Shown piece by piece: positions 2,112 to 8,213 of a stretch of 9,844 bases of DNA. Within the stretch, counting starts at the first letter, position 1; the number at the start of each line of letters is the position of its first letter. Below the pieces are notes generated by a model, which saw nothing but the letters and a program-made list of their open reading frames with translations, did no database searches and was not told the origin of the DNA. This DNA comes from Nitrospinae bacterium RIFCSPLOWO2_12_FULL_45_22 (GTDB lineage Bacteria > 2-12-FULL-45-22), in NCBI GenBank assembly GCA_001803565.1, contig MHDQ01000029.1, positions 1-9,844 on the forward strand, read 5' to 3'. A program made the translations under genes and the position numbers.

Positions 2112-3179
2112 CTACAGGGATCCCAGGCGGTGTAAGGCTTCTATTTTTTCCCCCCGGCCAATTTTTGCCTGGGTTACGACCTTCCTTAGAAACTCAATCG
2201 AGCGGTCATAGTTCTTTCGGTCTATGGGATAAGGGTGACTGTCTTTGCCTCCATGGGCAAAGCTGAAGCGGGCAGGGTCAGTGTAATTGGGCTTAATGCC
2301 ATAGACCAACTCTGATATCAAACTAAGGGCTCGAATAGCCTTGGGGCCCACCCCGGGCATGCCCAGGAGTTTCTCAAAGTCTTCCGGTTGGTTTTCGTAG
2401 GTGGAGCAAAAAATCTTGTAGAGCCTCTCTGGGTGCAAGTCCTGTACCAAGATATGGTGTCGGCCAGGTAGGTCCAACTGCTGCATCTTCTTTATCTCCC
2501 TGACCAATATCTCTGGCCTTTCATGCGAGACTAAGGTGGTAGTATTCCGGGCATCAGCACTATCACTAGCCACCAGATTCAAAACCAGCCTGGCTTTTGA
2601 GTCACAGCAGATAGCTGCTTCTGGCTCATTAACAAAATCAGTCACTTTTTCCCCCAGCCAATGATACCGGCGGGCATAACAGTTTGTTTCATTCATGCCT
2701 TGCTGGATAACAGCCCATTTCCCTTCCCTGGTAAAAAAGAAGCTATGATGGTATAATTGGTAACCATCCTGGAGGGCATTATTATCTACTTTGGCCGCCA
2801 TCCGGCTAGCAAATTGTAAGCTAGCTGGCTCAATCAGCAAGTAGTTACCAACCTTTTCTATCTCATGGGGTGTGTGGCGAGAGATACCCCCTTTCCCGCC
2901 AGCTACAAAGAGTCCCAGCTCCCTTTCTAGCCCCTTTAACCCTTCTTTTATCGCTCCACAGGTTGTCGTTGTCAGCCCACTAGAATGCCAATCAAATCCC
3001 AACACACACCCCAGGGCCTGGAACCAAAAAGGGTCAGAGAGTTTAATCAAGAATTCCTCTGGGCCCTGTTCCAATACAATGAGGTAGATAATCTCCCGCG
3101 CTAGCTTCCTCATCCGCTGGAAGAGCCAGGGTGGGGCCTGCCCATAATGGAGTGGCAGATACGCTTCCCCTACTTTCAT
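2112..3179 (-). CDS. DUF763 family protein with a helix-hairpin-helix motif, function unknown
   Basis: The 355-residue product has the hallmarks of the DUF763 family found in archaea and scattered bacteria. They are an N-terminal LPLHYGQAPPWLFQRM (8-23), SDPFWFQALGCVLGFDWHSS (48-67) followed by TTTTCGA, GGKGGISRHTPHEI (94-107), KWAVIQQGMN (154-163) and, near the end, FSFAHGGKDSHPYPIDRK (305-322). Residues 272-280 (LGMPGVGPK) form a helix-hairpin-helix of the type that binds DNA backbone, so a nucleic-acid role is likely, but no enzymatic activity is established for the family. The length is close to complete. The start fits the family N-terminus although the ribosome site is weak (AAAGG about 10 bases upstream). 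The 169-bp repeat lies 35 bases upstream of the start codon and probably contributes the leader. Confidence 0.85.
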   Translation of the reverse strand: MKVGEAYLPLHYGQAPPWLFQRMRKLAREIIYLIVLEQGPEEFLIKLSDPFWFQALGCVLGFDWHSSGLTTTTCGAIKEGLKGLERELGLFVAGGKGGISRHTPHEIEKVGNYLLIEPASLQFASRMAAKVDNNALQDGYQLYHHSFFFTREGKWAVIQQGMNETNCYARRYHWLGEKVTDFVNEPEAAICCDSKARLVLNLVASDSADARNTTTLVSHERPEILVREIKKMQQLDLPGRHHILVQDLHPERLYKIFCSTYENQPEDFEKLLGMPGVGPKAIRALSLISELVYGIKPNYTDPARFSFAHGGKDSHPYPIDRKNYDRSIEFLRKVVTQAKIGRGEKIEALHRLGSL

Positions 3180-3214: not shown

Positions 3215-3383
3215 CTAAGTGCTTCATTTCATAAATACAGTTACGTATTATGCCTATTTTTTGCCTTCTTTTTTATTAGGAAACCAAGAAGCCAGGAAAT
3301 TAACCTCTCCTGTATTCCTGGTTTCCTTATCATAAGCACTTTCTCTCAAATACGTCACCGTAATTATGGATTAGAGCACTAAG
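3215..3383. repeat. 169-bp terminal-inverted-repeat element, copy 1 (MITE-like)
   Basis: The ends are inverted copies: CTAAGTGCT at the left and AGCACTAAG at the right. Imperfect pairing extends over about 33 bases (26 of 33 when a left end is aligned with the complement of a right end). An inner hairpin pairs CCAGGAA (3292-3298) with TTCCTGG (3315-3321). It carries no ORF and no transposase. A second copy of exactly the same length in the same orientation lies at 7904-8072, with 6 differences by hand alignment (about 96% identity). A convincing target-site duplication is not visible. The element resembles a non-autonomous miniature transposable element, family unassigned. Confidence 0.8.
3329..3358 (-). 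promoter_or_regulatory. Possible outward promoter inside repeat copy 1, directed at the DUF763 gene
   Basis: On the minus strand GTGACG (3353-3358) and TATGAT (3329-3334) are separated by 18 bases. TATGAT matches the -10 consensus at 5 of 6 positions and GTGACG matches the -35 at 4 of 6. Transcription would run through the rest of the repeat into the DUF763 gene. The same motif is conserved in copy 2. Confidence 0.25.
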
Positions 3384-3584
3384 GGTCGGGTGGCACTTGA
3401 ATTATAATAGTTTAATAACATTTTAGGCAAGTGGAGTTGCGCAGAAAACCAACCTACCCAATTTCTAGTGTTCCCCAAAAATTTTATGTTTTATTAGGGA
3501 TAATTGTGAGAGGAGAGGTGGTTTTCATGGACAGGAAAAAGGGAAATGAACCGTTTAGGGGAAATGAAGGATGCTGTTCTCGGA
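3384..3584. other. Intergenic stretch between repeat copy 1 and the GGDEF gene
   Basis: These 201 bases are AT-rich and contain no gene of recognisable family. A TATAAT at about 3402 on the plus strand lacks a matching -35. The only coding-like signal is the short plus-strand ORF beginning at 3527, which runs on into the 3' end of the GGDEF gene. Confidence 0.4.
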
Positions 3585-3622
3585 TTAGGCAACACAGGTT
3601 TTATTCCTGCCAGAGGATTTAG
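3527..3622 (+). CDS. Doubtful 31-residue plus-strand ORF, possible truncated gene start
   Basis: An ATG at 3527 is preceded by a good ribosome site (AGGAGAGGTG, 3511-3520) and begins MDRKKGNEPFRGNEG. It ends after 31 residues, overlapping the last codons of the convergent GGDEF gene by 38 bases. A second frame starting at an ATG inside it reads MKDAVLGLGNTGF and also stops soon after. The strong ribosome site is the only reason to list it. It may be the leftover start of a gene cut off when the neighbouring block was joined here, or chance. Confidence 0.2.
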   Translation: MDRKKGNEPFRGNEGCCSRIRQHRFYSCQRI

Positions 3623-4634
3623 CCCGATATAAGGCTTGATCTGCCTTGATTACCAGCGCTTCCTTATTATGAGCATCTACCGGATAAGTAGCTATACCAA
3701 CACTTATAGTAATCCTTGACTTAGGCATAGTGCCTCTCCCACTGAATCTTGTCTTTTCTACTGCCTCTGACAGTCTCTTCCCTAATAAGACGGCTTCTGC
3801 CTTACTGGTTTCAGGGGCAATAACGCTGAATTCTTCCCCCCCATACCGGGCAATTAGGTCATAAAAGCGGCAAGAGCCTTTTAAAAGGCCAGTCAATTCT
3901 TTCAATAATGCGTCTCCGGCAGGATGGCCATAAGTATCATTGTATTGCTTGAAGTGATCAATATCTAACATGAGTAGAGATACACTATGCCCATGTCTTT
4001 CCGCCCGGGCCACTTCTGCCTCTAATAAATTGTGTAGGGCCTGATGGTTAAAGAGTCCTGTCATACTGTCTAACCTGGATAGTTCCTTATAATATTGGGC
4101 TTCTTTAGCTACCCTTTGCACCTCTCTCTTTTCCAGCGTTTTGGCTATTATAATCTTTATCAATTCATTATTAAGGGGCTTGGTTAAGTAATCCGCTGCT
4201 CCTAATCTCATGGCCTTTACCGCGGTCTCTACCGAGGCATACCCGGTGATAATAATAACGTCAATTTCTGGGTCTATTTCTTTGCCCCTCTCAAGTAGTT
4301 CCAGACCATCTATCCCGGGCATCTTTATGTCGCTGAGAATCAAATCAAAAGGCATCGTTTTAACCTTTTCTATGGCTTCTTCGCCATTACAGGCCGTCCA
4401 TACTCTGTATCCTTCTGCTTCCAATACCTCCCGGAAGAGATCCAGGATAATCTCTTCATCGTCTACTACCAATATCCTGGCGGGCAGTCTAGCTAACTCT
4501 ACCTTATCGTGGGTTCCAAATATATTGGAATAGTTATCGCCTGTAGCTAACATATTAGATGCTACAGAAATATTTTCCCGCCCGGTTGTGACCTCTCGGG
4601 TCCCCAATTTTTTCATTTTATCTCTCTCGTCCAT
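3585..4634 (-). CDS. Response regulator with GGDEF output domain (diguanylate cyclase)
   Basis: This 349-residue soluble protein couples a receiver domain (about 53-168) to a GGDEF domain (about 185-345). The receiver has the acidic pair D58/D59, the phosphoacceptor D102 in LILSDIKMPGIDG, T130 and K152 (TKP), so it should accept phosphate from a histidine kinase. The cyclase domain starts with DSMTGLFN (189-196) and has the metal ligand D224 and an intact active site GGEEF at 265-269. An RxxD inhibitory site, RFYD at 256-259, lies five residues before it. It should make cyclic di-GMP from two GTP when phosphorylated and be restrained by its product. No partner kinase gene is adjacent. Residues 1-50 are a low-homology leader. 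Met7 (4616) has a slightly better ribosome site (GAGAGA) than Met1 and may be the true start. The gap to the upstream acyl-CoA ligase gene is 152 bases with no clear promoter seen. Confidence 0.92.
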   Translation of the reverse strand: MDERDKMKKLGTREVTTGRENISVASNMLATGDNYSNIFGTHDKVELARLPARILVVDDEEIILDLFREVLEAEGYRVWTACNGEEAIEKVKTMPFDLILSDIKMPGIDGLELLERGKEIDPEIDVIIITGYASVETAVKAMRLGAADYLTKPLNNELIKIIIAKTLEKREVQRVAKEAQYYKELSRLDSMTGLFNHQALHNLLEAEVARAERHGHSVSLLMLDIDHFKQYNDTYGHPAGDALLKELTGLLKGSCRFYDLIARYGGEEFSVIAPETSKAEAVLLGKRLSEAVEKTRFSGRGTMPKSRITISVGIATYPVDAHNKEALVIKADQALYRAKSSGRNKTCVA

Positions 4635-4786
4635 TAAGATAAAGAAAAATTAGCTAAGACTTTGCCTCAGCCCAATGCTCTTTTCTTTAGCAGAAAGGTT
4701 GAGATAATGGCACTCTAAAGCAACTTCGACAAGTTTCCTCTGTCGTTTCTATAACTTATCGGAAGAAATTAGTAAATAATCAAATG

Positions 4787-6346
4787 TTAGGAGACCCTAC
4801 TCTCCTGGTCTCGCCAGTATTGCTCTCGTAAGACCCTCTTTAGTATCTTACCCGAGGGATTGCGGGGTAATTCAGCCACAAAGTCTACTGACTTAGGCTT
4901 CTTATAGCTGGCCAGTCTATCTTTGCAATGGTCCATAATCTCTTGTTCGGTACAGGTCTCGCCATCCTTTAGGACCACTATGGCCTTCAACGACTCACCC
5001 CATTTCTCATCCGGTACCCCGATTACAGCACAGTCCACTACCTTCGGATGGGCCATAATTACGTTATCTATTTCTACCGGATAGATATTGACACCCCCAC
5101 TGATAACCATATCAGACTTCCGGTCTACTACATAATAATACCCTTCTTCATCCATCCTCAGCACATCACCCACGGTAAACCATTTACCACGAGAGTTATC
5201 GTCGGTAGCCCTGGGGTTTTTATAGTAGCCATCCAGCATACATGGCCCGGTAGCATATAGTATCCCCGGCTCACCATGGGGTGCTGGTTTGCCTTCCTCA
5301 TCCAGGAGGGTCATCTCATAGCCAAAGATAGGCTGGCCCACACATCGGAGCTTACGGCGCTGGTCTCTATGTTTCAAATTGGTACAGATACCGGTCTCGG
5401 TAGCTCCATAGACCTCGCTAAGATTGGCATTCTTGAAATAGTCTAATATCCATTCCTTGGTCTTGGTATGCAGTGGGGCGGCTCCAGAGGTAAGCACCCG
5501 CATAGAGCTGACATCATAGCTGTCTAACTCTTTCTTAGGCAGTTGCATCATCATATTATACATAGTAGGGACGAAAAAGGCGGTAGTAATCTTTTCCTCC
5601 CCGATAGTCCTCAGGGTATCGGCAGCATCAAACTTCTCCCGGATAAGGACTGTCGCGCCTATATATAGATGCATATGGTTAAAGAAGCAGGGGCCACCAT
5701 GGTAAAGGGGCCCTACGCTAATAATCTTGTCCTCTTCGGTAAAGCCAAATTCTATACAGGAGTACATGTAGAGTAAAGTATTTGCCCGGTGGCTGCGGAC
5801 CGCTCCCTTGGGGAATCCGGTAGTGCCTGAGGTATACATAATCAGATTATGATCAGCCTCTTTCAATTCTACTTCCGGTTCAGCGGTGGAAGAGCGGGCC
5901 AGTAGCTCTTCATAGGGGATCATGTTAGGGCATTTCTCATTTCCTAACAGGATATAATGCTTTACTTGCTCAAATTGCTTCATAACCGGCTCTACCCTCT
6001 CCAGGAACTCAACACTGGTGATCAGGGCCTTCGATTCAGAGTTGTTGACAATATATTGTATTTCATCTGCTTTCAGGTTGTAGTTGATGGGTACGGCTAC
6101 AAAGCCGGTCTTGTGGATAGCAAAGTAGGCATCCATATACTCCGGCTTATTAGACAGGAGGATCGAGACCTTATCACCTTTTTTGAGCCCTAAGCCCATC
6201 AAGCCGTTAGCCAGGCGGTTGACGCGTTCATTATACTCCCCATAGGTCATCCGCTTATCTTCAAAGATTATGGCCTCTTTGGTCGGATATTTTTGGGCAT
6301 GTTGTCGCAAAGTATCGCCTACCAATAAAGTGTCCTTCAATAGCAT
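4787..6346 (-). CDS. AMP-forming acyl-CoA synthetase (FadD-like, class I adenylate-forming enzyme)
   Basis: The 519-residue protein is a full-length member of the ANL superfamily. It activates a carboxylic acid with ATP to an acyl-adenylate and then forms the CoA thioester. The P-loop-like motif YTSGTTGFPKG is at 171-181, GATETG follows in the middle of the protein, the hinge region reads YYYVVDRKSDMVISGG, and the C-terminal catalytic lysine is K500 in NPSGKILKR. It has no signal peptide or membrane segment, so it is cytosolic. The overall pattern fits medium- or long-chain fatty acid-CoA ligases (FadD13-like), but aromatic or other acids are possible and the substrate cannot be read from the sequence. 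No beta-oxidation genes are adjacent. The start is supported by GGGAGGG (6354-6360) seven bases before the ATG. A possible promoter lies at 6411-6439. Confidence 0.92.
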   Translation of the reverse strand: MLLKDTLLVGDTLRQHAQKYPTKEAIIFEDKRMTYGEYNERVNRLANGLMGLGLKKGDKVSILLSNKPEYMDAYFAIHKTGFVAVPINYNLKADEIQYIVNNSESKALITSVEFLERVEPVMKQFEQVKHYILLGNEKCPNMIPYEELLARSSTAEPEVELKEADHNLIMYTSGTTGFPKGAVRSHRANTLLYMYSCIEFGFTEEDKIISVGPLYHGGPCFFNHMHLYIGATVLIREKFDAADTLRTIGEEKITTAFFVPTMYNMMMQLPKKELDSYDVSSMRVLTSGAAPLHTKTKEWILDYFKNANLSEVYGATETGICTNLKHRDQRRKLRCVGQPIFGYEMTLLDEEGKPAPHGEPGILYATGPCMLDGYYKNPRATDDNSRGKWFTVGDVLRMDEEGYYYVVDRKSDMVISGGVNIYPVEIDNVIMAHPKVVDCAVIGVPDEKWGESLKAIVVLKDGETCTEQEIMDHCKDRLASYKKPKSVDFVAELPRNPSGKILKRVLREQYWRDQESRVS

Positions 6347-6410
6347 ATCGTTACCCTCCCCTCAGCCTAGCTTCTATAGGTTGATATTGTTTAAAGTTAA
6401 GATTTTTCTG

Positions 6411-6439
6411 ATAGTGCCATAAACCTCCTTATTTGTCAA
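6411..6439 (-). promoter_or_regulatory. Possible promoter for the acyl-CoA synthetase gene
   Basis: On the minus strand a perfect TTGACA (6434-6439) is followed after 17 bases by CACTAT (6411-6416), a weak -10. It lies in the 118-bp gap between the TM0106-family gene and the acyl-CoA synthetase start. The perfect -35 box suggests a separate or activator-assisted promoter, but the poor -10 keeps this uncertain. Confidence 0.3.
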
Positions 6440-6470
6440 AAAAAATTTTGCTAAAAAAAACAAGCTAGCT
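6440..6470 (-). terminator. T-rich end of the TM0106-family gene, weak terminator candidate
   Basis: On the minus strand the stop codon lies inside the palindrome AAGCTAGCTT, which is followed by G and eight T residues, then CAAAATTTTTTTTG. The palindrome has almost no loop and would make a poor hairpin, so intrinsic termination is only possible. The long T-runs are what stand out. Confidence 0.25.
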
Positions 6471-7859
6471 TACTTTATTGATCAACCATTCTTTTACTAC
6501 CTTAGTAGCTAAGCAATCATCCCGGTTGTACTCGATGGCCCAATCCAGGTACTGTTGTTGGGCGGTTTCTAGCCAGAGGGAATACCAGAGCATAGACTGA
6601 TGGGCATTGGCCTTATGATTACTCCAACTGAATCCTAACCATTTAGCAATCTCTTTTAAAGAATAGCTCCGGGTAGGTATAACCAGGTGATCTTTTATGA
6701 ACTTATGGATATCGGCCATATTGCCCAATATGTGCTGGAGCAAATCTTCTTCACCACCATATTTCACCTGGAGCTTTTTCAAGACCATAGGTTCATAGGT
6801 ATGGTAGTGATAAACAATAAAATCATCCTCCCACTGGGCCATAAATGCAAGAAACTCCTGCCAGATACGGCATTCTTCTATAGGGTCTTTGGCCACAAAG
6901 CAACGATACTCTTCCTGACCATCTTGACATACTAAAACCCCGATGAGATAGATTATCCCCCGCTGGTATTCACTCTCTATATCCAGGAAAATCTCCACCT
7001 TTTTCTCAGGCAGGAAAAAGCGTTTCATTTGGATAGTCTGACTGCTGGCCAGGGCTTGGGCCTGGAGTTTTATGCGTTTAGATAGACCCCGTGAGCCTTG
7101 CTGGAACCATCTTAAGGCCCGGGTGGACAAATGGGCCAACTGGCTTATCCGTATAATTCCTTGATTTTTCAATCTTTCTTTAGCCTGCCTGGAGAGACCT
7201 GGTATTAAAGAGATGTCCTCCCGTTCCCAGGCCTCTGCTACACAAGTCCTTTCCCAGGGGCAGTTCTGACAGGCCGAAGAGATAAAAGGGGATACTTCCT
7301 GACCTTGAAAAATAGCTTCTATCTCCTGTAATACCTGCTGAAAATAGGGGTAATTCTCCCTCACCGGGATTAGCCGCTGCCTTCTATCGGAAAGGATCAA
7401 TCCCATATGGTCAGGCAACCGCCCTTGAATAATCTCTAATATATGGACATAGAAGATAGTTTGCAGGAGATATATTTTCCGGCGGGTACGGCCGCTTTTA
7501 ATCTCTACTGGTCGGTAATGGTAGGTACCGAATAAGGAGTTTCCTGGTACCTTCTCCAGCAAATCTGGTATCCCAAGAAAGTTGTTGGTAAATAGGACCC
7601 CATGTGCTATCCAGTCCACCCCTTGTTGCATAAGGGCCAGAGTCTTCTCCATTCCTTGATAATAATTACCTGGCTCATATTGAGGTACACAGCAAGGGAT
7701 CGTCTTCAATACCTGCTGCTCAAAATAAAGGCTATCTTTCTTGAGCCTTAAGAGAAAATCGCTAGGTGAGGTCTTTTGCCTGGAGTCACCATGAAGCTCT
7801 AAATATAGCCACCGGGGGCATTTGCTATATTGGAAAAAATTTTCCGCGGTAATTACCAT
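6465..7859 (-). CDS. TM0106-family RecB/Cas4-like nuclease fused to an RNase H-like exonuclease domain
   Basis: The 464-residue protein matches the TM0106-type RecB-like putative nuclease family. Residues 1-210 form a Cas4/RecB-type PD-(D/E)XK domain: D99 in GIPDLLE, E119 and K121 in VEIKSG, and the QTIFY motif at 133-137. Four cysteines placed as in Cas4 (C14 in SKCPRW; C197, C200 and C206 near the end of the domain) probably hold an Fe-S cluster. Residues 219-250 look like a helix-hairpin-helix (IPGLSRQAKERLKNQGI). The C-terminal part resembles the RNase_H_2 (YprB-like) fold, with D293/E295 in FLDIES, VYHYHTYEP, and YNRDDCLAT carrying D447/D448. Both nuclease centres appear intact, which suggests DNA end processing or repair; the physiological role of the family is unsettled. 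The start fits the family N-terminus although the ribosome site is weak. The second copy of the 169-bp repeat lies 44 bases upstream. Confidence 0.88.
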   Translation of the reverse strand: MVITAENFFQYSKCPRWLYLELHGDSRQKTSPSDFLLRLKKDSLYFEQQVLKTIPCCVPQYEPGNYYQGMEKTLALMQQGVDWIAHGVLFTNNFLGIPDLLEKVPGNSLFGTYHYRPVEIKSGRTRRKIYLLQTIFYVHILEIIQGRLPDHMGLILSDRRQRLIPVRENYPYFQQVLQEIEAIFQGQEVSPFISSACQNCPWERTCVAEAWEREDISLIPGLSRQAKERLKNQGIIRISQLAHLSTRALRWFQQGSRGLSKRIKLQAQALASSQTIQMKRFFLPEKKVEIFLDIESEYQRGIIYLIGVLVCQDGQEEYRCFVAKDPIEECRIWQEFLAFMAQWEDDFIVYHYHTYEPMVLKKLQVKYGGEEDLLQHILGNMADIHKFIKDHLVIPTRSYSLKEIAKWLGFSWSNHKANAHQSMLWYSLWLETAQQQYLDWAIEYNRDDCLATKVVKEWLINKVS

Positions 7860-7903
7860 GCCACGCTATCCAGTATCGTGCAACTATTCAGCCACCAAGA
7901 ACG

Positions 7904-8072
7904 CTTAGTGCTTCATTTCATAAATACAGTTACGTATTATGCCTATTTTTTGCCTTTTTTTTTATTAGGAAGCCAAGAGGCCAGGAAATTAACCTCTCCT
8001 GTATTCCTGGTTTCCTTATCATAAACACTTTCTCTCAAATACGTCACCGTAATTATGGATTAGAGCGCTAAG
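7904..8072. repeat. 169-bp terminal-inverted-repeat element, copy 2 (MITE-like)
   Basis: This is a direct repeat of 3215-3383, equal in length, with 6 base differences (positions 7906, 7957, 7972, 7980, 8025 and 8067 by hand alignment). The ends are CTTAGTGCT and AGCGCTAAG, one mismatch apart as an inverted pair. Like copy 1 it has no ORF and lies just upstream of a minus-strand gene, here the TM0106-family nuclease. Only 7 bases separate it from the unrelated inverted-repeat element at 8080-8213, so two elements sit side by side in the 350-bp gap between plsY and the nuclease gene. Confidence 0.8.
8018..8047 (-). promoter_or_regulatory. Possible outward promoter inside repeat copy 2, directed at the nuclease gene
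   Basis: GTGACG (8042-8047) and TATGAT (8018-8023) on the minus strand, 18 bases apart, repeat the arrangement in copy 1. A transcript would carry about 105 bases of repeat sequence plus 44 bases of unique leader before the nuclease start codon. Confidence 0.25.
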
Positions 8073-8079
8073 TTTTACT

Positions 8080-8213
8080 GTAACAGTTCACGGGGATCAG
8101 TTAACAGGGTTCAGAAAAAGAGTTTAAATTTTAAATAGTTATCGCTATTTGGAGAGGGCGCTGATGTCTTTGAGGAAAAGATTGCCGGACAACTGATCCC
8201 TGTGAACTGTTAC
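8080..8213. repeat. 134-bp element with 23-bp terminal inverted repeats overlapping the plsY stop
   Basis: GTAACAGTTCACGGGGATCA plus GTT (8080-8102) pairs with its complement at 8191-8213, 22 of 23 positions. The 88-base interior is AT-rich, has a small hairpin AAATAG/CTATTT and no ORF. The right end supplies the TAA stop of plsY. It may be a second kind of miniature element, or an intergenic palindrome that also acts as an mRNA 3'-end structure for plsY. No target duplication is obvious. Confidence 0.7.

Follow-up and report, generated by a model that had tools for sequence, protein, structure and literature searches.

Two copies of a short inverted-repeat element

The window analysed here, a stretch of 9,844 nucleotides on contig MHDQ01000029.1, comes from Nitrospinae bacterium RIFCSPLOWO2_12_FULL_45_22, whose genome (G000 below) amounts to 3.67 Mb in 321 contigs and is 85% complete. 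It contains a 169-bp sequence twice, the first copy standing shortly upstream of a gene for a DUF763 protein and the second upstream of a gene for a TM0106-family RecB-like nuclease (Table 1; G, C and L numbers denote genomes, contigs and loci). A preliminary description had read the pair as a mobile element with terminal inverted repeats (TIRs) that acts as a shared leader linking the expression of two DNA-processing genes. Our analysis bears out the first half of this proposal and not the second: with a probability of about 0.93, the two sequences represent one non-autonomous miniature transposon of some 160 bp, a miniature inverted-repeat transposable element (MITE) of the IS630 type.

The anatomy given in that description is accurate. 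The repeat is direct and real, both copies being 169 bp long, in one orientation and separated by exactly six substitutions (element positions 3, 54, 69, 76, 122 and 164), and such a 96% identity cannot be chance; comparison beyond the element on both sides found no common sequence. The names of the two genes are confirmed by their family matches, and the gaps between copies and gene starts are indeed 35 bp (DUF763, start 3179) and 44 bp (TM0106, start 7859), both genes lying on the minus strand and pointing away from the element's left end. The TIRs are about 31 bp long, imperfect, about 80% complementary and of the GTGCTYNATTTCATAANTNCGGTNACGTATT type, and all well-preserved copies are built as C-TWA-G followed by TG... 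and closed by ...CA-C-TWA-G (W, A or T).

Table 1. Positions of the element copies, their parts and the adjoining genes in the window
Feature	Position	Strand	Remarks
Putative MITE copy 1 with target bases	3215..3383	+	CTAAG[TIR ... TIR]CTAAG, W = A/A; 100% of query; element proper ~3219-3379
Left target-site bases TAA, copy 1	3216..3218	.	apparent 3-bp TWA duplication, partner 3380-3382
Left TIR, copy 1	3219..3249	+	GTGCTTCATTTCATAAATACAGTTACGTATT
Right TIR, copy 1	3349..3379	-	GTGCTCTAATCCATAATTACGGTGACGTATT as read on the minus strand
Internal palindrome, copy 1	3270..3335	.	arms 3270-3297 and 3308-3335
Promoter-like pair GTGACG-18-TATGAT, copy 1	3329..3358	-	-35-like hexamer within TIR core
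Putative MITE copy 2 with target bases	7904..8072	+	CTTAG[...]CTAAG, W = T/A, unmatched; element proper ~7908-8068
Left TIR, copy 2	7908..7938	+	about 31 bp
Right TIR, copy 2	8038..8068	-	about 31 bp
Promoter-like pair GTGACG-18-TATGAT, copy 2	8018..8047	-	9/12 consensus matches
DUF763 protein gene	2112..3179	-	355 aa; PF05559 8e-131; adjoins copy 1, outside element
TM0106-family RecB-like nuclease gene	6465..7859	-	464 aa; TIGR03491 3e-112; adjoins copy 2, outside element

The two copies belong to a larger family. A search of the genome with the 169-bp sequence returned 25 matching stretches, which fall into about 20 loci and are full, deleted or truncated, in size forms of ~130, 169, 189 and 203-206 bp, none of which holds a gene of its own. 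As is usual for MITEs, the family thus stays below ~600 bp, has no transposase gene, ends in TIRs and is dispersed in many copies. Several copies lie at contig ends and several contigs break within the element, as would be expected where a repeat disrupts assembly. Every one of the 18 copies that have a mapped neighbour on each side is intergenic, the intergenic share of the sampled genome being 13%, and copies other than those of the window have miscellaneous genes as neighbours. The element is absent from the one available genome of the same order. Separately, contig C306 carries a solo right-end terminal repeat (L165:2515-2545), 45 bp 5' of a small gene (89 aa) that resembles rpsO and that we take to be rpsO-like from its sequence alone, without a family search.

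These counts bear on the possibility that the repeat is no transposon and instead a conserved leader, or a segmental duplication, specific to DNA-processing genes. Such an origin would suit two copies of equal orientation at similar distances from two nucleic-acid-related genes. However, about 20 copies next to miscellaneous genes, with nothing in common outside the element, do not fit it, nor do the TIRs, the TWA duplication and the ends shared with IS630 transposons, and the DUF763 and TM0106 genes are never neighbours in 80 relatives (flanks of up to 6 kb compared); we regard it as extremely improbable.

Terminal repeats shared with IS630 transposons

Other genomes throw light on the element's nature. 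We scanned 386 genomes, our own included, for the TIR core TTCATAANTNCNGTNACGTATT, tolerating a single mismatch among its 18 fixed bases, and found it in 14, that is, in G000 and in 13 of the 385 others, while the reversed pattern, used as a control, occurred in 0/386. Six genomes (G041, G172, G191, G274, G311 and G337) have paired cores 97-273 bp apart and flanked by CTWAG, and these pairs would be MITE-like elements of other lineages. In G039 the TIR pair bounds a larger element of ~1.34 kb, with CTAAG on either side and two overlapping open reading frames (ORFs) that match HTH_23 and DDE_3 (PF13358, 1.3e-13) and NF033545 (107.6 bits, cut-off 100), which places it in the IS630 family. Its transposase (L026:1534-2758) is split over two overlapping frames, with the junction at a run of nine T on the sense strand, an arrangement consistent with programmed frameshifting.

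A search of the other TIR-bearing genomes with the G039 transposase recovered one relative of 64% identity in G372 and another of 61%, reduced to a remnant, in G191, and the same TIR stands directly past the 3' end of both. Outside this set, plasmid 2 of Polaromonas sp. JS666 (NC_007950.1) encodes an IS630 transposase (WP_232291614.1) 60% identical to that of G039, in an element whose ends read CTAAGTAGGCGATTTCGTAAATACGATAACGTATT ... CTAAG and have the TIR core in common with the MITE; in three additional IS630 copies on plasmids, the right end starts with CTWAGTGG. Because these TIRs bound IS630-family transposases in G039, G372, G191 and the Polaromonas plasmid, we assign the element to the IS630-type MITEs. 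A source of the IS5/IS1031 type, with its TNA duplications, was considered and rejected: the one PF13586 match in our genome has no TIR alongside, and the TIR-adjacent transposases are all IS630. Phages and plasmids gave no match in a DNA-similarity search, and the only match of the TIR pattern in viral contigs, whose terminal bases do not fit, was judged to be chance. In the open-access literature we found no description of this MITE or of a CTWAG-targeting IS630 group.

An apparent three-base target-site duplication

A duplication that includes the middle base of CTWAG predicts the same W at both ends of an element. Among 32 paired elements the two agree in 26, for 50% expected (p = 2.7e-4), namely in 16/18 of those from other genomes and in 10/14 of those from our own. 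A TA is present at each element end inside CTWAG. We also weighed and discarded duplication of TA with CTAG as the fixed target, which predicts CTAAG on the left and CTTAG on the right in every case, a combination seen in 2/32. The simplest reading suggests that the duplicated unit is the 3-bp TWA and not the usual TA. The mismatch at copy 2 could stem from mutation, from recombination between copies or from a chimeric assembly join. Apart from the duplication itself, about one third of the MITE copies (L008, L011, L013, L147, L017, L014 and L140) lie within AAAGCGCAAAGCTAAGGAATAATTCCTTAG-type palindromes, which are rich in AT and provide the CTWAG target at their centre.

Placement of the copies and the promoter-like pair

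Expectations for placement were derived from a hexamer-based gene call of our own, not from a published annotation, in a 572-kb sample of the genome, where intergenic DNA is by length 71% tandem, 22% divergent and 7% convergent. Of the 18 copies mapped between two neighbours, 12 are tandem, four divergent and two convergent, for 12.8, 3.9 and 1.3 expected (chi-square p = 0.82), so that the neighbour classes fit random intergenic insertion and the bias towards start codons expected from the preliminary description does not appear. Since 93% of all intergenic positions precede some gene, against 16/18 copies, a position upstream of genes is to be expected by default, and a spacing of some tens of bases to the next gene start is close to the default outcome of insertion between genes. 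Thirteen of the 18 copies lie no more than 130 bp from a start, versus 52% expected (one-sided p = 0.07). As to orientation, the left end faces the downstream gene in 8/10 intact tandem copies (p = 0.11), a count that becomes 8/12 (p = 0.39) once the C8 element (see below) and the C306 relic are included.

The promoter-like pair GTGACG-18-TATGAT had been described as conserved, and it is indeed kept in both copies, on the minus strand. With 9/12 consensus matches, for a chance expectation in shuffles of 1.1 and 0.9 such sites per stretch scanned, it is real but weak. It is also true that the six differences between the copies spare its boxes, though this is mostly expected by chance. Moreover, GTGACG falls inside the TIR core conserved at IS630 element ends in other lineages, and recognition by the transposase accounts for its being conserved.

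Could the element nevertheless be a mobile promoter or leader, the pair firing outward through the left end as in Correia elements, with DUF763 and the TM0106 nuclease co-expressed as a result? Both copies have the pair, its polarity is right for both genes, the left end is turned towards the downstream start in most intact tandem copies, and promoter-bearing MITEs are known, Correia among others (PMC10969869). Yet the orientation excess is not significant with or without the relics, the -35-like hexamer belongs to the cross-genome TIR core, about one such site per stretch arises by chance, and the neighbour classes are those of random intergenic insertion. We consider such a role unlikely. 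Outward transcription from the element is possible in view of the orientation excess; for shared expression of the two genes, nothing beyond this non-significant excess (8:2) speaks.

Folding of the element as RNA

On the minus strand each copy folds along its whole length, with -60 and -51 kcal/mol and z = -8.5 and -6.1 for copies 1 and 2, respectively, and RNase III is known to cleave Correia transcripts (PMC10969869). The transcribed element might accordingly act on the downstream genes as an RNA hairpin, be it a 5' leader, a processing site or an attenuator. This we hold to be very unlikely. TIRs alone yield a palindrome, and TIR elements generally fold in this way. In addition, 0/40 base pairs of the hairpin are altered on both sides, as compensatory changes would be, an Rfam search of the element gave no match, deleted forms on contigs C1 and C313 lack one arm of the internal hairpin, and a terminator-like call is weak and limited to copy 1. 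Any transcript running through a copy would contain a strong hairpin, and no evidence points to control of DUF763 or TM0106 by this means.

Other palindromic repeats

Besides the MITE, we came across a second kind of palindrome. Inverted arms composed of short near-repeats (for example ACCACAAAGACACAAAGAACACAAAG, CCACAGATTACGCAGATTTCGCAGATTA and AACCGCCGATGAACGCCGAT) flank GxxExxY/PDDEXK_3 nuclease genes, or what remains of them, in our own genome (L239-L250; e.g. L246:1463-1682, L243:1462-1883 and L247:1451-1680) and in others (L251-L275). All 11 testable loci of our genome have inverted-arm scores of 15-32, for a control mean of 10.1 and a 99th percentile of 17, which ten of them exceed; elsewhere, 16/21 loci reach the 95th percentile of same-locus controls and 10/21 are above the 99th, although low-complexity arms (e.g. 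L252) inflate some of these scores. These loci look like a widespread palindromic mobile repeat or passengers of one, and a literature search found no description of GxxExxY genes in inverted-arm palindromes. A repeat family of ~230-260 bp (L247:1453-1680, L248:1416-1641, L249, L250 and L243), in which L247 and L248 are 96% identical, matches the GxxExxY locus L243 except for a deletion of the middle part, as if the nuclease gene had decayed until a palindrome without a gene was left. The window itself has gene-less sequences of similar style at 863-936 and ~2006-2045 (CACCACAGAGGC... / ...CTCTGTGGTT; CACCGCTCTTCTGCGTGCTCTGTGTTCTCTGCGGT), possibly empty remnants of GxxExxY-type palindromes, and near copy 2 an inverted repeat of 23 bp (GTAACAGTTCACGGGGATCAGTT, 96% complementary, 8080-8102 / 8191-8213, 88 bp apart) forms a further palindrome.

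The two kinds of repeat meet on contig C8 (L140:1450-2110) in a triple nesting, where a GxxExxY gene with its inner arms lies within an IS630-type TIR element (CTTAA...CTTAG), itself within a AAAGCGCAAAACTAAGG palindrome. We rejected the idea that this 576-bp element is a MITE with a nuclease as cargo, the nuclease gene having inverted arms of its own; the gene looks like a second insertion within the TIR element.

Discussion

The IS630-type MITE that we describe appears to be a new family, ordinary in kind and unusual in its apparent target duplication. A transposase of the IS630 subgroup, supplied in trans, would formerly have bound the terminal repeats, excised the element and inserted it at CTWAG sites through the cut-and-paste mechanism of IS630/Tc1-mariner transposons. 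Insertions into genes would have been lost, so that the copies persist mainly between genes, and mostly upstream of them, with no regulatory design.

Several observations weigh against this account. Our 85%-complete genome yielded no transposase of the subgroup by the search used, and the mobilising enzyme must for this reason be deduced from other genomes, in which the same protein family has relatives of 61-64% identity; the sole DDE_3 match, on contig C247, belongs to another IS630 that lacks these TIRs and is ruled out as the source. Matching of W within our genome alone gives p = 0.09, copy 2 being among the mismatches, some of which may be assembly chimeras, as several contigs break inside the element. 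Finally, transposition itself was not seen, and the genomes at hand offered no empty orthologous site. The family appears to be orphaned, probably so given that the sequenced 85% seems to have no source left, or else the source belongs to the 15% that is missing.

A bolder scenario may be drawn from the same data, in which an IS630 subgroup spread across unrelated bacteria targets CTWAG, duplicates TWA and has repeatedly spawned MITEs, and in which the orphaned MITE here also acts as an oriented outward promoter for some downstream genes. Taken as a whole, it is quite unlikely. For the two copies of the window, a general account replaces the regulatory one: they would be gene-less relatives of a widespread IS630 subgroup, scattered between the genes of a poorly sampled bacterium. 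The matched TWA within CTWAG, which recurs across several unrelated genomes, departs from the TA duplication of textbook IS630/Tc1-mariner elements in a way that can be tested.

The MITE can be compared with several known systems. The repeat unit of pneumococcus (RUP), for which IS630-Spn1 is the proposed mover in trans (PMC2229807; PMC3049150), is likewise small, gene-less and mostly intergenic, with IS630-like TIRs and a proposed trans-acting transposase; it differs in its 107 bp, in sharing a genome with its source element and in its TA-containing targets, whereas the MITE has CTWAG, an apparent TWA duplication and no source found. The Correia/NEMIS elements of Neisseria, to which we liken the MITE in general build and placement, also measure 100-200 bp, have TIRs, are foldable and numerous, and often lie upstream of genes, but their promoters and RNase III cleavage are established by experiment (PMC10969869), while the MITE is known from sequence alone. 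With IS630/ISY100 elements of the Tc1-mariner type it has in common a presumed cut-and-paste mode, a T/A-containing target and TIRs which elsewhere bound DDE_3/NF033545 transposases; ISY100, however, inserts into TA and duplicates it (PMC2170065), where the subgroup of the MITE has a matched TWA in CTWAG. The element of Polaromonas sp. JS666 plasmid 2 resembles the MITE in its ends, its CTAAGTAGGCGATTTCGTAAATACGATAACGTATT TIR containing the core and CTAAG standing on both sides; it is autonomous and has two ORFs, whereas the MITE has none.

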